In this document: in pieces, positions 16,713-22,527 of the stretch
Layout: the number at the start of each line of letters is the position of its first letter
Position numbering within the stretch: the stretch's first letter is position 1
Source of the DNA: Amycolatopsis pittospori
GTDB lineage: Bacteria > Actinomycetota > Actinomycetes > Mycobacteriales > Pseudonocardiaceae
Assembly (NCBI RefSeq): GCF_013870525.1
Contig: NZ_JACBXD010000044.1
Location: forward strand, 1-64,000
DNA length: 64,000 bases
Reading direction: 5' to 3'
Program-made: the position numbers and the translations under genes
The notes under the pieces: generated by a model
The model's database searches: none
The model's input: only the letters and a program-made list of their open reading frames with translations
Told to the model about the DNA's origin: nothing

Positions 16713-16817
16713 GCCCCGTGGCGCCGCCGGACGCACCGAACGGCACCGGCAGACAGCGATCAGACAGCGGAGGCCGCTAGAAAACCCTGGATACATTCGC
16801 ACTGATCTGGGGTGAAA

Positions 16818-17207
16818 ATGCGAAGAATTGTCATCGGGATTCTGGCCGCACTGATCGCGGCCGGGGGCACGGTCCTGGCCTCCGCACCCGCGCAGGCCGG
16901 CCAATTGAACGGCGTCTGCGAGGACAGCGAGGTCTGCGTCTACCGGGACGCCTATCGTTCCGGAGGTATCGCGGACTTCGAGTGGAGCGCCCCCGACTAC
17001 TCGCAGTGGACCTTCTACGGCTCTTCGACGACGCTGAACGACAACGTGTCCTCGATTCACAACGAGGGCAACATCCTCCGGGTCCGGATCTGGGAACACG
17101 CCAACTACACCGGCAGGCTGCTCGACCTCATCGGGCGGAACACGGTGAAGGACACCCTGCCCGGTTACGACAACACGGCCAGCTCCCACCAGTTCATCAC
17201 CGGATGA
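16818..17207 (+). CDS. Secreted small peptidase-inhibitor I36 / crystallin-like protein
   Basis: 129 residues with a Sec signal peptide (MRRIVIGILAALIAAGGTV..., cleavage near AQA-GQ, residue ~30). The mature part has paired Cys (GVCEDSEVCVY) then DAYRSGGIADF, LNDNVSSIHN, RIWEHANYTGRLLDL and YDNTASSHQFI. This is the I36 peptidase-inhibitor (SMPI) / beta-gamma-crystallin-like domain common in actinomycete secretomes. The target is unknown. ATG 16818 is chosen because it aligns with the paralogue 0.87 kb downstream; an in-frame GTG lies at 16812. The next gene overlaps its stop by ATGA. Confidence 0.8.
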   Translation: MRRIVIGILAALIAAGGTVLASAPAQAGQLNGVCEDSEVCVYRDAYRSGGIADFEWSAPDYSQWTFYGSSTTLNDNVSSIHNEGNILRVRIWEHANYTGRLLDLIGRNTVKDTLPGYDNTASSHQFITG

Positions 17208-18067
17208 GGTCTCTCGTCCGGTTGTCCCTCTGTGCCGGTGTGGTGCTGGTGGTGGCGGGATGCGCGGCGACCGCGCAAAGCGCGCCGCCTCCCGCCGAGC
17301 CCGCACCGGCGCGGGTGGACACCACCGATCTCAAACGGTTCGCGTTGCCGTTGGACACCTACACGCCGAGCCGCGCGGAGAACGCCGCCATCGGAAAAGC
17401 CCGGTTCGCCGCGTTCAAGGAATGCCTGCTCGGATTCGGTTTCGACATCGGCGCGCTACCGGAAAGTCCGCCTGAAACCGCTGGGGTGAACGAATTCCGC
17501 TACGGCCTCACCGACGAGGTCAAGGCGCGGGCAACCGGGTACACGGCCGCCCCGCAACCCAAGCCGCCGCAGCCCGACATTCCCCCGGAAGCACGTCCGA
17601 TCGCCTCCGGAAAGGGTGAGCGCACCTACAAGGGCAAGCCCGTGCCCGAAGGAGGCTGCCAGGGCGAGGCCGGGCGCAAGGTCGCGGAGGGGGCCGCTCA
17701 CGACGAGAGGCTCGTGCTGCGCCTCGGCGACGAGGCGGGGAAGCAAGCCGAAGCCGACAGCCGGGTGAAGGCGGCTTTCCAGGCTTGGAGCGCGTGCATG
17801 ACGCGGGCCGGGTTCGACTACGCCGATCCGTGGAAGCCGAACGACAACCCCGAGTTCCAGGGGCAGGATGCCGGCCAGCGGGAGATCGCCACGGCCACGG
17901 CCGACGTGCGGTGCAAACGCGAGGTGGACCTCGTCGGCGTCTGGGCGTCCGTGGAGGCCGCGTACCAGGAACGAAAGATCGCTGAGAACGCCGAAGCGTT
18001 GAAGAACGTGAAGGGTGCCGTCCAGACCATGCTCGGCAACGCCGCCCGGATCACCGACACGAAGTGA
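17204..18067 (+). CDS. Lipoprotein of unknown function
   Basis: 287 residues. The N-terminus is a lipoprotein signal: MRSLVRLSLCAGVVLVVAGC with lipobox VAGC and lipidated Cys20. The mature protein has a Pro-rich stretch (PPPAEPAPA), then an acidic/charged helical body with conserved-looking Cys and Trp (FKECLLGFGFD, AWSACMTRAGFDYADPWKP, CKREVDLVGVW). Similar 'AxxAxxxC(M)...GF' lipoproteins are widespread and uncharacterised in actinomycetes. It overlaps the upstream I36-like gene by 4 bp and the second I36-like gene starts 8 bp after its stop, so the three are surely one transcription unit. No function can be assigned. Confidence 0.75.
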   Translation: MRSLVRLSLCAGVVLVVAGCAATAQSAPPPAEPAPARVDTTDLKRFALPLDTYTPSRAENAAIGKARFAAFKECLLGFGFDIGALPESPPETAGVNEFRYGLTDEVKARATGYTAAPQPKPPQPDIPPEARPIASGKGERTYKGKPVPEGGCQGEAGRKVAEGAAHDERLVLRLGDEAGKQAEADSRVKAAFQAWSACMTRAGFDYADPWKPNDNPEFQGQDAGQREIATATADVRCKREVDLVGVWASVEAAYQERKIAENAEALKNVKGAVQTMLGNAARITDTK

Positions 18068-18075
18068 GGATGAAC

Positions 18076-18459
18076 ATGCGAAAGAGCATCATCGCCGCGG
18101 CAGTGCTCGCGGCGGGCGTGTCCACGGTGGTCACGGTGGCTCCCGCTCAAGCCGCCACCTATGACGGACGCTGTGACAGCGGGGAGGTCTGCGTCTACGA
18201 GAATCGCGGTTTCCAGGGAGGTATGGCCGACTTCGACGGAGACGTCAACGACTACCGCTCCTTCAGCTTCGTCGGCGTCCCTTGGGTGTCGCTGAACGAC
18301 AACGCGTCGTCGCTGATCAACAAGGCGAACTGGATCCCGGTCTACCTCTTCGAGCACGCCAACCAGAGCGGCAGGCTGCTCACCAGGGTCGGTCCCGGCG
18401 ATGTGCAGGACCAGATGGCGTACGACAACCAGGCGAGCTCGCACGCTTTCCGGATCTGA
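18076..18459 (+). CDS. Secreted small peptidase-inhibitor I36 / crystallin-like protein (paralogue)
   Basis: 127 residues, clearly a paralogue of the protein at 16818: signal peptide MRKSIIAAAVLAAGVSTV, then DGRCDSGEVCVYENRGFQGGMADFDG, LNDNASSLIN, LFEHANQSGRLLTRV and YDNQASSHAFRI. The two Cys and the DNxxSSxxN and YDNxASSH segments are shared. ATG 18076 is used because GAGGA lies ~6 nt upstream and the start aligns with the paralogue. The pair brackets a lipoprotein gene, which suggests duplication after insertion or a functional set at the cell surface. Confidence 0.8.
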   Translation: MRKSIIAAAVLAAGVSTVVTVAPAQAATYDGRCDSGEVCVYENRGFQGGMADFDGDVNDYRSFSFVGVPWVSLNDNASSLINKANWIPVYLFEHANQSGRLLTRVGPGDVQDQMAYDNQASSHAFRI

Positions 18460-18503: not shown

Positions 18504-19226
18504 GTGGAGTCGAGCACGGTCGCGAACGCGGGTGACGCGCTGTTCCGCCCGGTGCGCGCGGGCAACGCCTTCGAGGAGACCGTCGAAAGGCTGCTTCAGG
18601 CGATCCGGCTCGGCGTGGTGGGCGCGGGGGAGCGGCTGCCTTCGGAGCGGGAACTCTCGGAGCGGCTCGGCGTCAGCCGGGTGACGTTGCGCGAGGCGAT
18701 CCGCGCGCTGGCGGACGCCGGGTACGTCGAGTCGAGGCGCGGCCGCTACGGCGGCACGTTCGTCAACGACGTCCTGCCCGATCCACCCGCCGCCGACGGC
18801 CGGAAGGTCGACAACGCCACCCTGGAGGACGCGCTCGGGCTGCGGCACGTCCTGGAGACCGGCGCCGCCGAGATGGCGGCTTCCCGTTCGCTCACCCCGG
18901 CCGACCGGCAGCACCTGACCAGCACGCTCGCCGAGGCCGCGGCGGCCGACGTCGGCGACTACCGGCGCAAGGATTCCCGGCTGCACCTGGCGATCGCCGA
19001 GGTCACCGCGTCCGGCTCGCTGACCACGGCGATGGCCGACGCGCGGATGCGGGTCAACCAGCTGCTCGACATGATCCCGCTGCTGGAACCGAACCTGGAG
19101 CACTCCAACGCGCAGCACGAGGCCATCGTCGACGCGATCCTCGCCGGCGACTCCGAGGCCGCCCGGCGGGCGATGACGGAGCACGTCGAAGGCACCGCTT
19201 CGCTACTTCGCGCCTTCCTCGCCTGA
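18504..19226 (+). CDS. FadR/FCD-family GntR transcriptional regulator
   Basis: 240 residues. The winged-helix GntR domain occupies residues ~20-90 (GERLPSERELSERLGVSRVTLREAIRALADAGYVES), followed by an all-helical FCD ligand domain with RLHLAIAEV and the metal-type His in EHSNAQHEAIVDAI and MTEHVEG. FCD regulators usually respond to carboxylates or sugar acids. The neighbours (I36 proteins, PBP) give no obvious ligand, so the regulon is unknown; control of the amine-utilisation cluster is conceivable but unsupported. Start GTG 18504 is favoured by the -10 element 6 bp upstream. A family A palindrome follows the stop. Confidence 0.85.
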   Translation: MESSTVANAGDALFRPVRAGNAFEETVERLLQAIRLGVVGAGERLPSERELSERLGVSRVTLREAIRALADAGYVESRRGRYGGTFVNDVLPDPPAADGRKVDNATLEDALGLRHVLETGAAEMAASRSLTPADRQHLTSTLAEAAAADVGDYRRKDSRLHLAIAEVTASGSLTTAMADARMRVNQLLDMIPLLEPNLEHSNAQHEAIVDAILAGDSEAARRAMTEHVEGTASLLRAFLA

Positions 19227-19240
19227 CCCCACCCACTCCC

Positions 19241-19303
19241 GCGTTTAGTCCTCTGAATGCGGTAGTTCGCATCGCCAACTACCGCATCCAGAGGACTAAA
19301 CGC
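19241..19303. repeat. Palindromic repeat family A, copy 2
   Basis: Arms of 27 bp (19241-19267 and 19277-19303) with one mismatch around a 9-nt loop, bounded by GCGTTTAG and CTAAACGC. The core CCTCTGAATGCGGTAG equals that of copy 1. Here the flanking genes point the same way, so it is not restricted to convergent gene ends. Confidence 0.8.
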
Positions 19304-19379
19304 GACGGGTGGGCAGGGCGATGACACGATTCGGTGATTTTCCCACAACCTTTTCACCCGTCCGGGCGTCTCTAGTGTC

Positions 19380-21329
19380 GTGGAAAACCCGGATGACGAA
19401 ACCGCACCCGAGTCGGAAACCACGGCCACCCCGGAGCCGGAGAGGAAGAAACGCAGGTGGCGGCGGGTACGCCGGATCGGCGCCTGGTCGCTCGGCCTCC
19501 TGATCGGCATCCCGGTGGTCGCGTTCGGGATCGCGTACGTCCTGCTCGACGTCCGCAGCCCGCAGGAGGTACTGGCCGACCTCGACAAGACCGTCGTCCT
19601 CCAGAACGCGGACGGCTCCGAACTGCTCAAGGTGGTCCCGCCGGGCGGCGACCGGCTGTTCGTGCCTTACGACGCCGTCCCCGCGAAGCTGCGCGACGCG
19701 ATCGTCGCGACCGAAGACCCGACGTTCTGGGACAACGAGGGCTTCGACCTCACCGGACTCGGCCGGGCGCTGGTGACCGGCGTCGGCGGCGGATCCGGGA
19801 TCACCCAGCAGTACATCAAGAAGTCCACCGGCAACGAGGACGCCACCCTCGTCCGCAAATTCTCCGAACTGGTGCTCGCCACGAAGATCACCCAGCAGCA
19901 GACCAAGAAGGAGATCTTCGAGAGCTACATCAACATCATCTCCTTCGGCCGCGGCACCTACGGCCCGGCGTCGGCGATGAACGCCTACTTCGGCCGCAAA
20001 CTCGACGACTCGATGAGCTGGAGCGAGGCGGCCTTCCTCGCCGGGATGATCCAGTCGCCGTCGGTGCACGACCCGTACGCCTCCACCCACGAGCACGCGA
20101 TGAAGCGCTGGTCGTACGTGATGAACAAGCTGGTCGCCCGCGGTTACGTCAGCCAGGCCGAGGCGGTCACGATGACCTATCCGGAGGACGCGATCCAGGC
20201 ACCGTCGGAGACCCGGGCGGGCCGCGTCACCTACGAGAAGTACCACCTCAAGCAGCAGGTTCTCGCCGAGCTTGAGCAGGCCGGCTTCCCGCTGGACCGG
20301 CTCCGCGGCGGCGCGATGAAGGTCGAGACGACGATCGATCCGCGTGCGCAGGCCGAGGCCGAGAAGACGGTCAAGGAGCGGCTGCAGGGCCAGCCCGAGC
20401 ATTTCCGGGCCTCTCTGGTCGCGGTCGAACCCGGCACCGGCGCGATCCGCGCTTACAACGGCGGAGGCTGGAGCGTGCACGACTACGCGGGCACCCCGTA
20501 CGGCACCGGGTCGGCCTTCCATCCGTTCACGCTCGCGGCCGGTCTGCGGCAGGGCGTCAGCGTGGACGAGCCGGTGAAGCTGCCGAAGGAGGTCGACTTC
20601 CTCGGCGAGACCTTCAAATTCGACGACCAGTGCGGCGATGCCGGGAAGTGCACGCTTCGCGAGGCGTTCGGGCGCGACGCGCAGGGGCCGTTCGTCGAGC
20701 TGGCGAAGAAACTCGGCGCGGAAGAGGTCCGGAACGGGGCCCGGGCGGCGGGCATCCCGGAGACCGTGGACGGCGAGGTGACCTTGCGCGAGAAGGACGG
20801 TTTCCTGATCGGCCCCGGGATCGCGGTCGGCCGCTATCCCTTGCGCGTCAGAGACATGGCGGGCGCCTACGCGACCTTCGCCGCCGAGGGTATGCGCGCC
20901 ACCCCGCACCTGGTGTCGAAGATCCGCGACGAGCACGGCGAGGTCGTCTGGGAGTGGCCTTCGGACAGGGCGCCCGCGTTCGACGGCGACGAGGAGCTGA
21001 GCCGCCGGATCGCCGGCACGATCGGCCGTGTGCTGATCACCGGACTGAAGGACCGTCCGGCGGCGTTGAAGACCGGTGACTTCCGCTTCCAGGAAACCGG
21101 GGACAACGCCGGTGCCTGGGCCGTCGGGTACACGCCACAGCTTTCGACGGCGGTCTGGGTCGGACCGGACGAACCACGCCGGATGCGGGACGCCGCCGGG
21201 GAGAAGCTGACGGGCAAGACGATCCCGTCCGAGATGTGGCAGCGCTTCATGAGCGGCTATCACCAAGGGCTGCCGGTGCGGTGGCCCGAGCCCGCCGACC
21301 CGCGGCCGGCTCAGGCACCGCCCCGGTGA
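19380..21329 (+). CDS. Class A penicillin-binding protein-like glycosyltransferase with degenerate transpeptidase domain
   Basis: 649 residues. A charged cytoplasmic tail (ERKKRRWRRVRR) and one transmembrane helix (~33-57) precede a GT51 peptidoglycan glycosyltransferase with intact motifs: TEDPTFW (catalytic Glu112), GGGSGITQQY and VRKFSE, FGRGTYG. The C-terminal transpeptidase-like domain keeps the serine of SxxK but reads SAFH (Ser378, His381 where Lys is expected). The SxN position reads GRDAQG, and KTG survives as Lys564-Thr-Gly before AWAVGYTPQLSTAVWVG. It is probably an active glycan polymerase that lacks classical cross-linking and beta-lactam acylation. GTG 19380 is the only start that keeps the tail; upstream sequence is the repeat. 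Confidence 0.85.
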   Translation: MENPDDETAPESETTATPEPERKKRRWRRVRRIGAWSLGLLIGIPVVAFGIAYVLLDVRSPQEVLADLDKTVVLQNADGSELLKVVPPGGDRLFVPYDAVPAKLRDAIVATEDPTFWDNEGFDLTGLGRALVTGVGGGSGITQQYIKKSTGNEDATLVRKFSELVLATKITQQQTKKEIFESYINIISFGRGTYGPASAMNAYFGRKLDDSMSWSEAAFLAGMIQSPSVHDPYASTHEHAMKRWSYVMNKLVARGYVSQAEAVTMTYPEDAIQAPSETRAGRVTYEKYHLKQQVLAELEQAGFPLDRLRGGAMKVETTIDPRAQAEAEKTVKERLQGQPEHFRASLVAVEPGTGAIRAYNGGGWSVHDYAGTPYGTGSAFHPFTLAAGLRQGVSVDEPVKLPKEVDFLGETFKFDDQCGDAGKCTLREAFGRDAQGPFVELAKKLGAEEVRNGARAAGIPETVDGEVTLREKDGFLIGPGIAVGRYPLRVRDMAGAYATFAAEGMRATPHLVSKIRDEHGEVVWEWPSDRAPAFDGDEELSRRIAGTIGRVLITGLKDRPAALKTGDFRFQETGDNAGAWAVGYTPQLSTAVWVGPDEPRRMRDAAGEKLTGKTIPSEMWQRFMSGYHQGLPVRWPEPADPRPAQAPPR

Positions 21330-21342
21330 TGCACCCGGTGAT

Positions 21343-22527
21343 TCAGCGCAGCGCGGTCTGCGCGGTCGTCCAGAAGTCCTCGCGCGCATGCCAGGGGGCC
21401 GGCCAGTCGGCGCGTTGCGTGAGGAGGATCCCGGTCAGTCCCGTGGCCGGAGCCGCCGCCCACGACGTGCCGAGCCCGCCGTCCCAGCCGTAACGGCCGC
21501 GGGCCGCGAGCCCGTCGTCCCGACTGACCACGGCGAGCCCGAATCCCCAGCCGAGCCCCGGGGACAGGAGCGGCGCGCCGCTCGCGGCCTGTTCCGCGGT
21601 GAGGTGGTCGGCCGTGAGCAGCGCGACCGACCTCGGGGACAGCAGCCGCTCGCCGTCGTGGACGCCGCCCGACAACAGCATCCGGCTGAACGCGAGGTAG
21701 TCGTCGGCGGTGGACACGAGCCCGGCGCCGCCCGAGGGGAACGGCACCGGCGCGTTCCACTGGCCGTCGGGAGCGTCGTAGACGTGTAGTTCGCCGGTGG
21801 CCTCGTCGGCTTGATACGACGTCGTGAACCGGTGCAGCCGATCGGCCGCGACGACGAAACCGGTGTCGACCATCCCGAGCGGTTCGAAGATCCGTTCGGC
21901 CAGAAAGCGTTCGAAGGGCATCTCCGCGGCCCGGGCGATCAGGATCGCCAGTACCTCCGAGCCGACCTGATACATCCACCGCTCACCGGGCTGGTGGAGC
22001 AGCGGCAGCGTGCCGAAGCGGCGCAGCCACTCGTCCGGATGATGCGGCGTCGTCGGCTTCGGCGGGCCGATGACCAGTTCGAGGTCGTCGATCGCGCGCT
22101 GGATCGGCGTCGAACCCGGTGGCGCGAGGACGATGCCGAAGCCCAGCCGGAAGGTCAGCAGATCCCGCAGGGTGATCGGGCGCGCGGCCGGGACGGTGTC
22201 GTCCAGCGGGCCGTCGATCCGGCGCAGCACCCGGCGGCCGGCGAGTTCGGGCAGCAGGTCGTCGACGGGCTCGTCGAGCCGGAGGCCGCACTCCTCGACG
22301 AGCATCATCGCCGCGACCGCGGTGAGCGGTTTGGTCATCGAGCTGATCCGGAAGAGACTGTCGCGTTCCATCGGAGTCCCGCCGATCGCCTTGTCTCCCA
22401 AGGCATTCACGTGGACTTCGTCGCCCGCGGCCACCAGGGACACCAGTCCTGGAACCTCGCCGCGTTCGACGTAGCCGGAAAGGACGCGCCGCCCCCGCTC
22501 GAGTCCGGCCGGGTCGAATCGGCTCAT
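21343..22527 (-). CDS. Beta-lactamase-fold serine hydrolase (class C/esterase VIII type)
   Basis: 394 residues. The nucleophile motif is Ser63-Met-Thr-Lys66 (ISSMTKPLTAV), with YQVGSEVLAILI in the Tyr position and GGAGLVSTADDYLAFSRML typical of the beta-lactamase/DD-peptidase/esterase group. There is no signal peptide, so it should act in the cytoplasm and is more likely an esterase than a beta-lactamase. ATG 22527 overlaps the last base of the upstream methyltransferase stop (TGATG), so it is translationally coupled. It is the third gene of an iron-box-controlled unit, which raises hydrolysis of a siderophore or catechol ester as a possibility (inference). Confidence 0.82.
   Translation of the reverse strand: MSRFDPAGLERGRRVLSGYVERGEVPGLVSLVAAGDEVHVNALGDKAIGGTPMERDSLFRISSMTKPLTAVAAMMLVEECGLRLDEPVDDLLPELAGRRVLRRIDGPLDDTVPAARPITLRDLLTFRLGFGIVLAPPGSTPIQRAIDDLELVIGPPKPTTPHHPDEWLRRFGTLPLLHQPGERWMYQVGSEVLAILIARAAEMPFERFLAERIFEPLGMVDTGFVVAADRLHRFTTSYQADEATGELHVYDAPDGQWNAPVPFPSGGAGLVSTADDYLAFSRMLLSGGVHDGERLLSPRSVALLTADHLTAEQAASGAPLLSPGLGWGFGLAVVSRDDGLAARGRYGWDGGLGTSWAAAPATGLTGILLTQRADWPAPWHAREDFWTTAQTALR

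Follow-up and report, generated by a model that had tools for sequence, protein, structure and literature searches.

A class A penicillin-binding protein of Amycolatopsis with degenerate transpeptidase motifs, a conserved glycosyltransferase site and a predicted envelope-stress promoter

The gene described here occupies positions 19380–21329 of a 64,000-nucleotide stretch of DNA (the window) from a member of the Amycolatopsis orientalis group; the ten relatives with named records were all Amycolatopsis, the nearest being A. orientalis (92%), and we take the genus to belong to the family Pseudonocardiaceae. The reading frame, present as the preliminary description of this DNA had reported it, lies on the forward strand (as do the parts and the promoter given below) and runs from a GTG start to the stop codon included in these coordinates. 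It encodes a protein of 649 amino acids that is a class A penicillin-binding protein (PBP) by homology. A predicted single transmembrane helix at about residues 33–55 (19476–19544; a hydrophobic stretch that is helical in the AlphaFold2 model) precedes a GT51 glycosyltransferase domain with both catalytic glutamates (residues 90–251; 19647–20132; Pfam Transgly PF00912, 150.8 bits) and a C-terminal transpeptidase-fold domain that is predicted to be catalytically dead (residues 345–594; 20412–21161) and gave a weaker match (Pfam Transpeptidase PF00905, 48.6 bits). The protein scored under the cut-off of the PBP1A-family model TIGR02074 (302.9 bits against 508.75) and of the monofunctional glycosyltransferase model TIGR02070 (87.2 bits against 182.65; it has a transpeptidase domain besides). 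A PADLOC run on the DNA returned no match.

The transpeptidase motifs of PBPs are SxxK, SxN and KTGT (PMC4810414; this and the other PMC articles are cited from excerpts). None of the three that define class A PBPs (SxxK, SxN and KTG[T/S]) is found in the window protein. In place of SxxK stands S378-A-F-H381 (20511–20522), and the RDAQ reported at the SxN region corresponds to residues 432–435, with D433-A434-Q435 (20676–20684) aligning with SxN itself. The KTG segment had been described as kept; K564-T-G566 is indeed present, but the next residue, a Thr or Ser in active enzymes of this class, is Asp567 (K564–D567; 21069–21080), which had gone unremarked. A cysteine pair of the transpeptidase domain (Cys418 and Cys424; 20631–20651) is retained.

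We surveyed 80 genomes of the genus and found an orthologue in 72, counting the window; the 71 besides it are 58–92% identical to the window protein. The other eight contain broken pieces only (G055), a best match of 41–42% identity (six genomes) or a best match with an E value of 1.7e-98 (G062). The orthologue of G029, whose frame is lost after about residue 454, was dropped from the counts, leaving 71 readable sequences. The SxxK lysine is absent from every one of them. A complete SxN survives in a single orthologue (L067) and KTG in 19, KTG[T/S] is found in none, and 70 have lost all three motifs; both cysteines of the pair are present in 71/71. The loss of the transpeptidase machinery claimed in the preliminary description is thus conserved among orthologues. 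The same cannot be said of His381, whose conservation that description had proposed to check: position 381 is Tyr in 30 orthologues, His in 23, Gln in 12, Thr in three and Asp, Phe or Ser in one each, so that the conserved feature is the absence of lysine, and a conserved role of His381 as replacement base is ruled out by the occurrence of seven residues there. In 60 orthologues Ser378 is retained; the remaining 11 have Thr, Pro or Ala instead.

In the glycosyltransferase domain, Glu112 (the catalytic base, motif 1; 19713–19715), Asp113, Gln144, Lys147, Arg159 and Glu163 (the second catalytic glutamate, motif 3; 19866–19868) are invariant in 71/71. The claim that the GT51 motifs are kept holds for these six residues and was otherwise slightly too strong, as the motif-2 Thr is Gly140 (19797–19799) in 71/71. 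This glycine is rare across the phylum, its DNA pattern occurring in 2 of 396 genomes (the own genome and one that reads GGTG). Within the family, five PBPs with intact transpeptidase motifs (L096, L105, L112, L114 and L115) have the same glycine, which need not mean loss of the polymerase for that reason and is ruled out as proof of a dead glycosyltransferase. The motif-1 His is Asn119 in 71/71; Asn also stands there in two of the three intact paralogues of the own genome (both copies in L088), the third (L089) having His. Equivalences with E. coli PBP1b numbering (T267, E290 and so on) are presumed, E233 excepted.

An AlphaFold2 model of the protein (60 sequences) had a mean pLDDT of 87.6. 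The nearest solved structure, by sequence (3.1e-48) and by fold, is PonA1 of Mycobacterium tuberculosis (PDB 5crf and 5cxw), the best match of the model being the penicillin V complex (5cxw; 350 residues of the transpeptidase part aligned, Z 47.7, rmsd 2.0, 34% identity). The two differ at the catalytic motifs, where PonA1 has GSSFK, SLN and KTGT and the window protein SAFH, DAQ and KTGD. PonA1 also binds Bocillin (PMC4483258). The transpeptidase fold is thus predicted to be whole although its site is dead.

Selection differs between the two domains. Mean pairwise identity among the 71 orthologues is 82% in the glycosyltransferase domain, 67% in the linker and 63% in the transpeptidase domain. 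As a control for pN/pS we used an intact paralogue taken from the 21 genomes compared; beyond the orientalis group this control combines two tandem paralogues, and synonymous sites are partly saturated. Mean pN/pS was 0.318 (glycosyltransferase) and 0.550 (transpeptidase) in the degenerate PBP against 0.512 and 0.549 in the intact paralogue, and the transpeptidase-to-glycosyltransferase ratio of pN was 2.10 against 1.21. In the 13 genomes of the orientalis group this ratio was 2.06 against 1.45, with a transpeptidase pN/pS of 0.215 in the degenerate PBP and 0.278 in the paralogue; in the other eight genomes it was 2.69 against 1.27, and the transpeptidase domain was looser than that of the paralogue (0.616 against 0.462). 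In the degenerate PBP, pN/pS is therefore below 1 in both domains, and its glycosyltransferase domain is more constrained than that of the paralogue. Across all 21 genomes, as within the orientalis group, the transpeptidase domain evolves no faster than its active counterpart, which suggests a remaining function; on balance, the pattern favours a structural role for the fold over plain decay.

The protein type extends beyond the genus. When 390 genomes of the family were searched, the matches listed included it in three genomes (G170, G178 and G181) out of the 19 from a second genus, at 59–60% identity over residues 19–395. These three orthologues (L099–L101) lack the SxxK lysine and have deletions across the SxN and KTG regions, and their glycosyltransferase motifs are kept. 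A model of one of the shortened proteins (L100) had a pLDDT of 85.1 and matched PonA1 with Z 32.7 and rmsd 2.7 over 273 residues. We placed 113 glycosyltransferase domains in a FastTree phylogeny, 69 with the SxxK lysine and 44 without, the latter including 35 of the 74 degenerate sequences of Amycolatopsis and the second genus. Sequences without the lysine fell into one clade on the Pseudonocardiaceae side (35 sequences, support 0.697) and two clades from a Streptomyces-like genus (seven and two sequences), of which the clade of seven groups with 12 intact PBPs at 0.976. By phylogeny, the nearest relative with an intact transpeptidase site is L096 (48% identity), which has SxxK, SxN and KTGT. 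In another tree, the junction of Amycolatopsis with the second genus has a support of 0.599; because this value and that of the whole clade are modest, the junction rests also on the shared neighbours described below.

In the 11 genomes of the Streptomyces-like genus, nine of 53 class A PBPs lack the SxxK lysine (L150, L153, L162, L165, L166, L167, L175, L179 and L183), and L175 and L179 are without SxN and KTG as well. Given that the clades are separate, the losses in Amycolatopsis and in the Streptomyces-like genus look independent, and a common origin is unsupported (the support of 0.697 being modest). If SxxK is never regained, the tree would imply at least three separate losses.

Neighbouring genes were counted at 57 loci with flanking sequence, two of which are the same place and one of which (L096) has an intact transpeptidase site; loci with short flanks were scored as misses. 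A GntR/FCD (FadR-type) regulator, at 18504–19226 on the forward strand of the window (Pfam), lies upstream on the same strand in 51/57 loci and adjoins the PBP gene (centres within 2 kb) in 40/57. A serine dehydratase gene is found upstream in 48/57 and a convergent methyltransferase gene downstream in 45/57. Further upstream, the window contains glyA, gcvH, gcvT and gcvP (names by NCBIfam). The three loci of the second genus likewise have gcvP upstream and a convergent methyltransferase gene downstream of the PBP, beside which the GntR gene was not found; within Amycolatopsis the position of gcvP is known from the window, as it lies beyond the flanks of the other loci.

Some elements of the window are of narrower distribution. 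Between sdaA and the GntR gene (16812–18459), a predicted lipoprotein with no Pfam match has a protein of the peptidase-inhibitor I36 family on either side; each of the three matches only one of nine close loci and none of 48 distant ones, so that the trio looks like a recent insertion. Convergent to the PBP gene, on the reverse strand (21343–22524), is a gene for a serine hydrolase resembling class C beta-lactamases (Pfam Beta-lactamase). As it has matches at three of nine close loci and at none of the 48 distant ones, it is no conserved partner. A 65-nucleotide palindrome (19240–19304; 27 of 28 bp paired in the arms, 9-nucleotide loop) separates the GntR gene from the PBP promoter, and 5 of 12 other loci of the orientalis group (L007, L009, L020, L022 and L023) have a like palindrome at the same site. 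With at most two mismatches allowed, the own genome has 202 copies of the palindrome arm (103 forward, 99 reverse; none in the reversed control), an abundance that assigns it to a family of REP-like palindromic repeats.

Immediately upstream of the PBP gene we found a predicted promoter of the ECF sigma-E type, CAAC-N17-CGTC (19346–19370), with the GTG start 9 nucleotides past CGTC; as the start adjoins the -10 element, a leaderless mRNA is predicted. The same layout (spacing of 16–18, start 8–9 nucleotides downstream) occurs at 70 of the 74 loci of this PBP type, L068, L069, L072 and L101 being without it. In the promoter alignment, built in such a way that AAC and CGTC are necessarily 100% conserved, most positions separating the two elements show stronger conservation than positions farther upstream. 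Of 1,480 mononucleotide-shuffled sequences, 15 contained any such match, a comparison to be read with the relatedness of the orthologues themselves in mind. The bare pattern is no rarer in the own genome than in the reversed control (four matches against three), which leaves conservation as the case for the promoter. Without the start-codon spacing the pattern is common: of 46 intact PBP frames of other genera, 23 have it in the 900 bases upstream. The three intact paralogues of the own genome had no match in the 300 bases searched, which N-terminal extensions place inside coding sequence, so that this absence carries no weight; the same holds for L096. Among the nine PBPs of the Streptomyces-like genus without the SxxK lysine, one had the pattern, lying 674 bases ahead of the position that aligns with residue 60 of the window protein. 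The locus of the window thus has the promoter features of a sigma-E-type regulon member (AAC and CGTC at the right spacing, conserved in relatives), with weak genome-wide specificity. Promoters of sigma-E in Streptomyces coelicolor share this form; there the factor controls the response to envelope stress that vancomycin induces, and all three class A PBPs of the species are among its targets (PMC6767563).

The sequences themselves show the loss of transpeptidase residues, the invariance of glycosyltransferase residues, the pattern of selection and the conserved promoter pattern; from these we infer the activity, the blindness to beta-lactams and the induction of the protein. It is probably (at a rough probability of 0.63) an envelope-stress-inducible, beta-lactam-blind glycan polymerase whose transpeptidase domain is only structural, in line with the first of the two options of the preliminary description, a dedicated glycan polymerase. 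The protein would be a membrane-anchored GT51 lipid II polymerase descended from a bifunctional class A PBP, with a D,D-transpeptidase site that is predicted to be dead, being without the general-base lysine, SxN and KTG[T/S]. Because these are gone, it would be expected to lengthen glycan strands but neither to cross-link them nor to be acylated by beta-lactams, and the transpeptidase domain may persist in folded form for structure or docking. The own genome encodes four GT51 proteins, the other three of which have SxxK and KTGT, as well as seven proteins with a transpeptidase domain, two FtsW/RodA proteins and six YkuD L,D-transpeptidases. Given these intact PBPs and YkuD proteins, cross-linking in trans is possible and would fall to the three intact class A PBPs, to class B PBPs or to L,D-transpeptidases of the same cell. 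Transcription is probably from the sigma-E-type promoter as a leaderless message, and as promoters of this type belong to envelope stress, the protein would be made while the wall is under attack.

Two experimental systems offer precedents for such a division of labour. In M. smegmatis, PonA1 with a dead transpeptidase sustains growth and one with a dead transglycosylase does not, the transglycosylase activity being the one needed for growth; the transpeptidase domain was called dispensable for survival, both activities affect cell length, and loss of transpeptidase activity shortened cells (PMC4483258). In E. coli, PBP1b with a dead transpeptidase (S510A) is, together with the L,D-transpeptidase YcbB, enough for wall polymerization under beta-lactams (PMC5089857). 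The likeness to the latter lies in a transpeptidase-dead class A PBP that supplies strands for cross-linking in trans; the difference is that S510A was engineered in the laboratory, whereas the loss described here is natural and shared across a genus. Monofunctional glycosyltransferases of the MtgA/SgtB type resemble the window protein in expected function (polymerization only), but are without a transpeptidase domain, of which the window protein keeps one that is predicted to be folded.

Of the other explanations, the one that fares best, although we consider it unlikely, is a regulatory or scaffolding pseudo-PBP in which neither domain is catalytic and which would bind lipid II or glycan and recruit or tune active synthases. 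A transpeptidase domain that is kept, predicted to be folded and under purifying selection without its catalytic residues is what such a protein would have, and the motif-2 Gly in all 71 orthologues fits as well. That glycine is shared with PBPs whose transpeptidase site is intact, however, and the glycosyltransferase domain, with both catalytic glutamates and the Gln, Lys and Arg of motifs 2 and 3 invariant, is the most constrained part of the protein; the deletions of the second genus fall in the transpeptidase domain and spare the glycosyltransferase. We regard as improbable that Ser378 still acts as a nucleophile with another general base (His or Tyr), forming a slow acyl-enzyme that would serve as a beta-lactam sensor or an unusual transpeptidase. 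Ser378 is kept more often than would be expected had all constraint been lost, and the lysine position is mostly Tyr, His or Gln; yet that position ranges over seven residues, the serine itself is substituted in 11/71, SxN is lost in 70/71 and KTG[T/S] in 71/71, and the second genus has deleted these regions.

Slow, genus-wide pseudogenization, in which a relic transpeptidase domain is decaying and the gene in its entirety is heading for loss, likewise seems improbable to us, although several observations point that way. The gene of G055 (L087) has several breaks, that of G029 (L086) runs out of frame, and seven of 80 genomes are without it, so that it is not essential everywhere; the two damaged copies indicate either that the gene is dispensable in some lineages or that the assemblies are faulty. 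The transpeptidase deletions of the second genus and the looser transpeptidase pN/pS in the eight genomes outside the orientalis group are in keeping with decay too. Against it stand a readable frame in 71/80 genomes at 58–92% identity, pN/pS below 1 in both domains, and the conservation of the promoter pattern and of the flanking genes. A sequencing or assembly error at the SxxK site, which the preliminary description had proposed to expose by looking for lysine in orthologues, is ruled out along with chance, as none of the 71 carries it, in assemblies of many qualities that include single contigs, and we found nothing in its favour.

Class A PBPs without SxxK are in general already known, as a sequence remark: 13 of 100 class A PBPs of Streptomyces lack SxxK, mostly keep SxN and KTG and were considered functional PBPs (Ogawara 2016, PMC6273383). 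The Amycolatopsis type resembles these in having lost SxxK and kept the glycosyltransferase domain, and differs from them in having lost all three motifs in 70/71 orthologues. The excerpted text of PMC9146315 yielded nothing on SxxK. Among the titles and abstract openings listed in searches of the open-access literature, none dealt with this Amycolatopsis protein, and we did not meet there the genus-wide loss of three motifs, the orthology, the selection pattern or the promoter.

Amycolatopsis is known for wall-active antibiotics. Judged from gene distribution alone, the occurrence of the protein in 72/80 genomes of the genus and in three of a second genus suggests no special tie to glycopeptide producers. 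A broader interpretation, which we offer tentatively and hold to be possible rather than probable, is that penicillin-blind glycan polymerases arose repeatedly in filamentous actinobacteria (at least three times, by the glycosyltransferase tree) from bifunctional class A PBPs whose transpeptidase site was killed and whose fold was kept. The Amycolatopsis form would have come under an envelope-stress sigma factor, so that attack may shift wall synthesis from beta-lactam-sensitive coupled synthesis to uncoupled polymerization with L,D-transpeptidation in trans.

The protein would represent a natural, stable and genus-wide separation of glycan polymerization from cross-linking within a class A PBP, a separation of which the examples in PMC4483258 and PMC5089857 are engineered mutants. 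It raises the questions of whether a class A glycosyltransferase domain can function in vivo unaided by a transpeptidase of its own and of why a transpeptidase fold that cannot react is kept, and it illustrates that annotation as a 'penicillin-binding protein' can mislead on function. Its interest would rise if the model of a stress-induced, uncoupled polymerase is true, and Amycolatopsis may possess a step of wall synthesis that is insensitive to beta-lactams.
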